From positions 2,542,001-2,606,000 of the forward strand of contig NZ_JAZIFX010000001.1 of NCBI RefSeq assembly GCF_036634175.1: a DNA stretch of 64,000 nucleotides, in the 5' to 3' direction. Positions 37,293 through 44,616 of the stretch are shown piece by piece (within the stretch, counting starts at the first letter, position 1; each line of letters starts with the position of its first letter). The DNA comes from Streptomyces sp. P9-A2 (lineage in GTDB: Bacteria; Actinomycetota; Actinomycetes; Streptomycetales; Streptomycetaceae). The notes beneath the pieces are model-generated. The model searched no databases. It worked only from the letters and a program-made list of their open reading frames with translations, and was not told the DNA's origin. A program made the position numbers and the translations under genes.

Positions 37293-40172
<2,880 letters not shown>

Positions 40173-40229
40173 GATCCTCAAAGCTCCATCGATCGTCTGC
40201 GCCCACGGCTGCTGCGACATTCGGAAATG

Positions 40230-40254
40230 AAAAATCCCCTCGCGCAGGAGGGGA
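40230..40254 (-). terminator. leuS attenuator terminator
   Basis: On the reverse strand GAGGGG-type stem (TCCCCTC/GAGGGGA, 7 bp, six-base loop) is followed by AUUUUU, a canonical intrinsic terminator and rare in this GC-rich genome. It lies between the leader peptide (40301-40339) and the leuS start, 58 bases upstream of it. Confidence 0.85.
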
Positions 40255-40255
40255 C

Positions 40256-40310
40256 GCCGCACCGATTCCGACCGACTGGTTCGACCACGGTCGGGACTGA
40301 TCAGTGCGGC
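40256..40310 (-). promoter_or_regulatory. leuS leader alternative RNA structure
   Basis: GCCGCAC within the last codons of the leader peptide (40310-40304) is complementary to GTGCGGC (40262-40256), directly before the terminator. Inside it CCGACCG pairs with CGGTCGG. Ribosome position on the leader would decide whether the first arm is free, as in transcription attenuation. Confidence 0.55.
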
Positions 40311-40339
40311 TCGCTAAGCAGAAGGCGTACGGCACGCAT
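40301..40339 (-). CDS. leucine leader peptide of leuS
   Basis: ATG at 40339 encodes [12 protein letters not shown] and a TGA: twelve residues with three consecutive leucine codons (CTT CTG CTT, two of them CTT, which is rare in this genome). It ends 46 bases before the intrinsic terminator and about 130 bases before leuS. Stalling at the leucine codons when charged tRNA-Leu is scarce is expected to prevent the terminator. No strong ribosome binding site is seen, so the transcript may be leaderless. It is inferred from sequence only. Confidence 0.75.
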
Positions 40340-40509
40340 GGCGCCAGGGTACCGCAGGCCCGGAGCGCACCGCGACGCACTTCGCCGCGCCCGCGGGAAG
40401 CACTCCACCCGACCAATTTTCTGAATATCAGTCAAAACTTACTCCGCGTAACATCCCCTATGGGGCATTACAGCAGCCGGATTGTCTTTTGATAACAGCG
40501 CAATAACTC

Positions 40510-43720: not shown

Positions 43721-43725
43721 TGCTG

Positions 43726-43798
43726 TGGAGCTAAGGAGAATTGAACTCCTGACCTCCTGCATGCCATGCAGGCGCTCTACCAACTGAGCTATAGCCCC
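43726..43798 (-). tRNA. tRNA-Ala (anticodon GGC), copy 1
   Basis: 73-nt cloverleaf on the reverse strand: acceptor GGGGCTA/TAGCTCC (one G-U), D arm GCTC...GAGC, anticodon arm CCTGC-ATGGCAT-GCAGG with anticodon GGC, T arm AGGAG-TTCAATT-CTCCT and discriminator A. CCA is not encoded. The sequence is identical to copy 2 at 44544-44616. Confidence 0.96.
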
Positions 43799-44527: not shown

Positions 44528-44543
44528 TTCGTCATGTGATCTG

Positions 44544-44616
44544 TGGAGCTAAGGAGAATTGAACTCCTGACCTCCTGCATGCCATGCAGGCGCTCTACCA
44601 ACTGAGCTATAGCCCC
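44544..44616 (-). tRNA. tRNA-Ala (anticodon GGC), copy 2
   Basis: Identical in all 73 positions to the gene at 43726-43798, with the same strand and orientation, 818 bp away. The flanking AGCTCCACAG bases are also shared over a few positions, as expected for a duplication. Confidence 0.96.

Follow-up and report, generated by a model that had tools for sequence, protein, structure and literature searches.

A leucine-codon leader, protector stem and terminator kept before leuS in many actinomycete families suggest ribosome-mediated transcription attenuation

In the window, i.e., the whole 64,000-nucleotide stretch of Streptomyces sp. P9-A2 DNA that we analysed, the leucyl-tRNA synthetase gene leuS and the elements described here all lie on the minus strand, in the order -10 box, leader, terminator, leuS as read from the sequence. 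A preceding sequence-only reading had described a 12-codon frame with three consecutive Leu codons about 130 bp before leuS, as well as a U-tailed terminator between this leader and the gene. Both were found as described, the frame at 40339-40301 with 128 nt separating its stop codon from the leuS start codon, and the terminator at 40254-40230. The features of the locus, with the basis of each assignment in brackets where it applies, are as follows.

40346..40351, minus strand: -10 box TACCCT, 6 nt 5' of the leader ATG (sequence)
40301..40339, minus strand: leader frame ATG CGT GCC GTA CGC CTT CTG CTT AGC GAG CCG CAC TGA, 12 codons plus stop codon
40316..40324, minus strand: three consecutive Leu codons, CUU CUG CUU, codons 6-8 of the leader (sequence)
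40316..40318, minus strand: third Leu codon, CUU, the proposed control codon, beginning 8 nt before segment 1
40301..40310, minus strand: segment 1, 5' arm of the protector stem, GCCGCACUGA, comprising the last leader codons and the stop codon (covariation)
40268..40294, minus strand: hairpin between segments 1 and 2, CCGACC...GGUCGG (lineage-specific)
40256..40265, minus strand: segment 2, 3' arm of the protector stem, UCGGUGCGGC (covariation)
40230..40254, minus strand: intrinsic terminator UCCCCUC-CUGCGC-GAGGGGA-UUUUU (sequence, folds), with stem 40254-40248/40241-40235, loop 40247-40242 and U5 at 40234-40230
40242..40247, minus strand: terminator loop CUGCGC, candidate segment 3, with a possible partner GUGCGG at 40262-40257
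40173..40190, minus strand: conserved box GATGGAGCTTTGAGGATC, including the probable leuS ribosome-binding site (similarity among relatives)
37293..40172, minus strand: leuS, leucyl-tRNA synthetase (LeuRS), 959 aa, ATG at 40172, with 76-94% identity to 33 Streptomyces and Kitasatospora loci

We took the ATG at 40172 as the leuS start; a 989-aa variant of the leuS open reading frame starts at an in-frame upstream GTG within the leader. Box GATGGAGCTTTGAGGATC varies little among the named Streptomycetaceae loci, many family loci have a closely similar one, and its strong conservation in Streptomycetaceae spans more than a ribosome-binding site alone needs. A second mini-ORF before leuS (AUG GAG CUU ...) was considered and rejected; since its AUG is missing in some relatives (L021, L192, and L193), we assign the box to the ribosome-binding region. 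Elsewhere in the window, two tRNA-Ala genes with anticodon GGC are located on the minus strand at 43725-43798 and 44543-44616, ~0.75 kb apart.

The spacing of the -10 box suggests that the leader transcript of the window is leaderless. Among 100 diverse leaders, TANNNT occurs 6-7 nt 5' of the start codon in 87, and an in-frame start codon is present in 96. A count in raw letters back from segment 1 finds a Leu codon beginning exactly 8 nt before it in all 100 leaders, and the codon at that position was CUU in 93 of them. By comparison, CUU accounts for 28/3236 Leu codons (0.9%) in the LeuRS stretches behind 108 fetched leaders, and for 19/1179 Leu codons (1.6%) in 27 mechanically chosen open reading frames of the window. 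We propose from these sequence counts that the third Leu codon, CUU, is the sensing (control) codon. Rare Leu codons reportedly matter in the Salmonella leu leader (Carter et al. 1986). At the 3' end of the frame, 14/96 leaders have a stop codon that starts 2 nt ahead of segment 1 and overlaps it by one base only, the first of segment 1, which indicates that segment 1 is conserved as RNA and not as peptide. The last leader residue of the window is His rather than Arg, owing to a linked double change (GCAC/GTGC) that leaves the stem intact; at those stem bases the other 33 named loci carry GCGC with GCGC or GCGT.

The sequence-only reading had further noted that a complementary pair, GCCGCAC/GTGCGGC, links the last leader codons to the base of the terminator. 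This pair (40310-40304 with 40262-40256) proved real, and the full protector pairing amounts to 10 bp including the stop codon, GCCGCACUGA/UCGGUGCGGC (40310-40301 with 40265-40256), of which one is U-G; a single base separates segment 2 from the terminator. To assess covariation we used alignment A2 of 100 leaders. It takes in the window, 18 of the 30 family loci, and 81 of the class loci linked to LeuRS, of which there were 89 before 8 from a single genus were dropped; the 33 named Streptomycetaceae loci entered alignment A1 only. With protector, middle hairpin, and terminator stem taken together, 97.9% of cells in A2 were paired, double changes occurred in 18/23 pairs, and 201 cells were changed on both sides, versus 39 ± 10 in shuffles and 13-24 when partners were slid. 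As A2 had been fitted to the structure, we repeated the test of the 1:2 stem without an alignment, using the Leu codons and the terminator as anchors (3/108 loci escaped the anchor) and scoring four variable stem bases. These were fully paired in 91/105 loci, whereas 2000 between-species swaps averaged 58.5 and never exceeded 68. The pair types include GCGC/GCGC, GCGT/ACGC, GCAC/GTGC (that of the window), GTGC/GCAC, GCAT/ATGC, and GCGA/TCGC. Within Streptomycetaceae, double changes were seen at 3 pairs (7 cells), the support being limited there because the sequences agree so well. The pairs of the middle hairpin are gapped in 62-67 of the 100 diverse leaders. Comparison of these sequences shows that the protector stem (1:2) is real and overlaps the last leader codons and the stop codon.

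The leader is kept far beyond Streptomyces, so that the conservation on which the sequence-only reading had made its proposal depend is borne out by both the Leu codons and the covarying 1:2 stem. Among 80 leuS loci, all 33 from Streptomyces and Kitasatospora show the window's order of -10 box, leader, and terminator, even though the leader search in these named loci demanded three consecutive Leu residues. Of the 47 named loci outside Streptomycetaceae, 5 gave a strong match (Blastococcus, Prauserella, Lentzea, Kibdelosporangium, and Amycolatopsis); those of Mycobacterium, Mycolicibacterium, Nocardia, Corynebacterium, and Bifidobacterium gave none at E below 0.001. Two covariance models were employed for wider searches, i.e., R1, built from the 33 named Streptomycetaceae loci and the window, and R2, built from the 100 diverse leaders. 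The window's own genome holds one R1 match at E <= 0.001, and an exact 21-base pattern likewise occurs once. Within the family Streptomycetaceae, R1 matched 392/394 genomes drawn, representing 17/17 genera, with a single match in all but one. In the class draw, R1 matched 135/393 genomes and 43/122 genera (44 of the genomes belong to the window's genus and 91, with 93 matches, to other families), and R2 matched 172/393 genomes and 59/122 genera, the 44 from the window's genus included; the remaining 221/393 class genomes had no R2 match. Two genomes missed by R1 (G404 and G424) do have the leader. A draw across the phylum gave matches in 30/346 genomes, 5 of the 30 lying outside the class. Taken together, sequence comparison shows that leader, protector stem, and terminator have been conserved jointly ahead of leuS across many actinomycete families.

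We also asked whether the leader belongs to a catalogued RNA family. At the gathering score, Rfam gave no match to the window leader and only the two tRNAs in the window, and for 20 other loci it returned one tRNA and nothing else; at a permissive threshold, the window leader yielded only a chance-level match to the uxuA RNA on the opposite strand (14.9 bits). A T-box or another Rfam family is thus not supported for the window or the 20 other loci. These results bear on the idea that the RNA senses tRNA directly, through a T-box or something similar, and that the short frame is incidental: although most Firmicutes synthetase genes are under T-box control according to the text of PMC1262725, the Rfam searches and the conservation of the Leu codons at fixed spacing both speak against it, and we regard it as extremely unlikely.

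The genes behind the leaders were identified by tblastn for LeuRS. All 93 R1 matches outside the family were fetched, and LeuRS followed in 89; it also followed in 16/16 newly R2-matched class loci, which were chosen among the stronger R2 matches (E up to 5.6e-9; of the weaker matches only L237 and L238 were fetched), and in 3/7 of a set composed of the five non-class loci from the phylum draw and two further class matches. Overall, LeuRS lies behind 108/116 of the matches fetched from outside the family, and the remaining 8 precede, by NCBIfam, leuC (4; L169, L172, L173, and L238), leuA (3; L174, L235, and L237), or acetolactate synthase (ilvB; 1; L236), i.e., all 116 precede a leucine-related or branched-chain biosynthesis gene. 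The leuA leaders (L231, L174, and L237) and the leuC leaders (L169, L172, L173, and L238) carry a Leu run ending CUU AGC with GCCGCG behind it, and the covariance models used for leuS pick them up as well, for the most part weakly; L231, the leuA leader of the window's own genome (C1:2524687-2524777, minus strand), scores 14.2 bits (E 3.2). From their sequences, the leuS, leuA, and leuC kinds of leader may share a kinship. Two loci from outside the class have a short leader with a terminator, L235 before leuA and L236 before acetolactate synthase, the L236 leader having many Ile, Leu, and Val codons.

This resemblance raises the question of whether leuS could be under translational or dual control in the manner of the leuA LEU element, in which the Leu run or the protector would sequester the leuS ribosome-binding site until a stalled ribosome freed it. 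The model matches to leuA and leuC leaders with their similar CUU-AGC...GCCGCG run, including the weak match in the window's own genome, would fit such control, as would the conserved box directly before the leuS start and the pairing of leuA Leu codons with the leuA Shine-Dalgarno box given in the text of PMC1262725. Against this stands the strong U-tailed terminator kept in leuS leaders, the leuA leader being without one in the account of PMC8079986, and we judge translational or dual control unlikely.

The identity of the LeuRS behind the 108 leaders to the window LeuRS is two-peaked, with 67 loci at 38-45% and 41 loci at 63-75%; since leaders precede both LeuRS types, the leader goes with both types of enzyme. 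Both LeuRS types occur in one genome (G564, listed contamination 2%), where they stand behind separate leaders, L084 and L132. In two genomes of the window's genus (G350 and G357; loci L221 and L222), the attenuator is absent by R1, and no Leu-rich leader was seen upstream of the best LeuRS match, which is a divergent LeuRS with ~51% identity in the best segment. By sequence, these two genomes look as though they had lost or exchanged enzyme and leader jointly.

Folding predicts the terminator at -12.0 kcal/mol, and its outermost pair varies with compensation in the 100-leader alignment. In equilibrium folds with segment 1 masked, the terminator still formed in all maskings of 5/5 sequences tried. 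A simple equilibrium switch is thus not supported for the sequences and maskings tried, and any antitermination must be kinetic. A terminator predicted in every masking state of the five sequences would also suit a constitutive arrangement, in which terminator and stem merely lower leuS expression with no response to leucine. That arrangement leaves unexplained the invariant position of the Leu codon, the near-invariant rare CUU, the covariation seen in a stem that codons help to form, and the presence of the same kind of leader before leucine biosynthesis genes; we consider it very unlikely.

For ribosome-mediated attenuation, which we prefer, the question is what would compete with the terminator, and the candidate is pairing of segment 2 with the terminator loop. 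The 2:3 hairpin (GUGCGG at 40262-40257 with the loop CUGCGC) is predicted at -5.1 kcal/mol, versus -12.0 for the terminator, and appears in the window and in most of the ten sequences printed when the RNA is folded before the terminator 3' arm. In co-transcriptional folds of 100 leaders, segment 2 paired upstream at 0.35 per base, versus 0.27 with the loop, on average. By pairing probability, the native 2:3 value was reached in 1/200 shuffled loops and 0/200 shuffled segments; by ensemble free energy, shuffles were as low in 155/200 (loops) and 200/200 (segments). When 2:3 partners were swapped across the class, the native ones did no better (-4.67 versus -4.70 kcal/mol for the swapped pairs, 124/200 as low), and a second swap test between species gave p 0.11 by pairing probability and 0.81 by free energy. 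In Streptomyces, 2:3 pairing is kept in 98.5% of cells without any two-sided change, and relative to a close relative (L028) the window differs in segment 1, segment 2, and the loop together. Since class-wide covariation was not significant, segment 2 and the terminator loop are kept as a possible antiterminator, a candidate suggested by these models.

Three features of ribosome-mediated attenuators were thus observed, namely a leader frame with consecutive Leu codons, a terminator between leader and leuS, and a protector pairing. The claim that the locus holds the full set for attenuation stands as far as leader, terminator, and pair are concerned, but was overstated, as the pair protects the terminator and no antiterminator had been named. 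On the strength of the sequence comparisons, we consider it highly probable that leuS is controlled by ribosome-mediated transcription attenuation, presumably in dependence on leucine. In this mechanism, RNA polymerase would start at the leader ATG, and a ribosome would load on the 5'-terminal start codon. If leucyl-tRNA were plentiful, the ribosome would finish quickly and leave, segments 1 and 2 would pair, the terminator would form, and leuS would not be transcribed; release must be fast, since segment 1 would likewise be covered by a ribosome still sitting at the stop codon. If charged leucyl-tRNA were scarce, the ribosome would stall within the Leu run, chiefly on the third codon, CUU. 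As we infer from the known size of the ribosome footprint, a ribosome holding this codon in its A site would reach with its front edge over roughly the 5' half of segment 1 and thereby block the 1:2 stem. Segment 2, then free, may form a short-lived pairing with segment 3, the terminator loop, which would trap the terminator 5' arm and permit read-through into leuS; the nature of the antiterminator is the weakest step of this mechanism.

Beyond the single locus, the data may describe an ancient leader family of the actinomycete class, absent from Rfam as tested, with CUU fixed near the protector as the sensing codon, standing before two LeuRS types, shading into leuC, leuA, and acetolactate synthase leaders, and forming a module largely independent of the enzyme; to this broader picture we give about as much credence as doubt. 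If it is true, this family would respond to how far a single isoacceptor is charged, or else to slow decoding by wobble. Synthetase control by a leader ribosome appears common before leuS in the class, beyond a few Streptomyces, and the near-fixed CUU makes it possible to test cleanly whether codon choice in attenuators follows isoacceptor charging. The alignments are deep enough for proposing a new RNA-family entry, and the window locus confirms a published prediction.

Enteric attenuators (leu, trp, his, and pheST) decide between protector and terminator on the one hand and antiterminator on the other by a ribosome stall at control codons. Compared with these, the leuS leader is apparently leaderless, and its antiterminator does not clearly pair with the terminator 5' arm; the his leader is described in PMC3896937. 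Ribosome-mediated attenuation of leuS, the best reading of the locus as the sequence-only reading had held, is not new, having been predicted in 2005: by comparison, Seliverstov et al. (PMC1262725) put forward candidate classical leuS attenuators in S. avermitilis and S. coelicolor, and likened them to pheST of gamma-proteobacteria. Gene, genus, and a leader frame with Leu codons are the same as here, and antiterminator and terminator hairpins are stated there; the differences are that two species are covered and that the text gives neither a class-wide spread nor the CUU position. Their antiterminator may correspond to our 1:2 stem or to the 2:3 pairing. A 2021 study (PMC8079986) reports leuL2 of S. 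lividans TK24, which, as described there, encodes a 12-residue leader, is leaderless from its own start codon, and is followed by a terminator, i.e., a hairpin and a uridine stretch, with leuS behind; a transcription start downstream of the leader, which would have spoken against the sequence-only reading, is thus not what is described for this homologue. The leuL2 peptide ends in Arg whereas that of the window ends in His, and the compensating segment 2 base of the window departs from the 33 named relatives as well.

The leuA LEU element shares with the leuS leader a leaderless leader and a Leu run (PMC1262725 and PMC8079986), and the leuA leader of the window's own genome likewise ends CUU AGC, then GCCGCG. 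It differs in that, in the accounts given in these two papers, it forms a pseudoknot with the leuA ribosome-binding site and lacks a typical terminator, whereas the leuS leader has one. For the S. coelicolor ilvB leader, the text of PMC1262725 cites earlier work in which changing possible control codons had no effect. The passages on leuS, where any, that we drew from PMC4833913, PMC8914203, PMC3896937, and PMC11995493 do not deal with attenuation, and no published class-wide leuS attenuator or fixed CUU was found in the literature searched, most subscription journals lying outside its reach. The attenuator of the window is already known in kind and almost in letter; what is added here, by sequence comparison, is the class-wide spread and the near-fixed rare CUU leucine codon.
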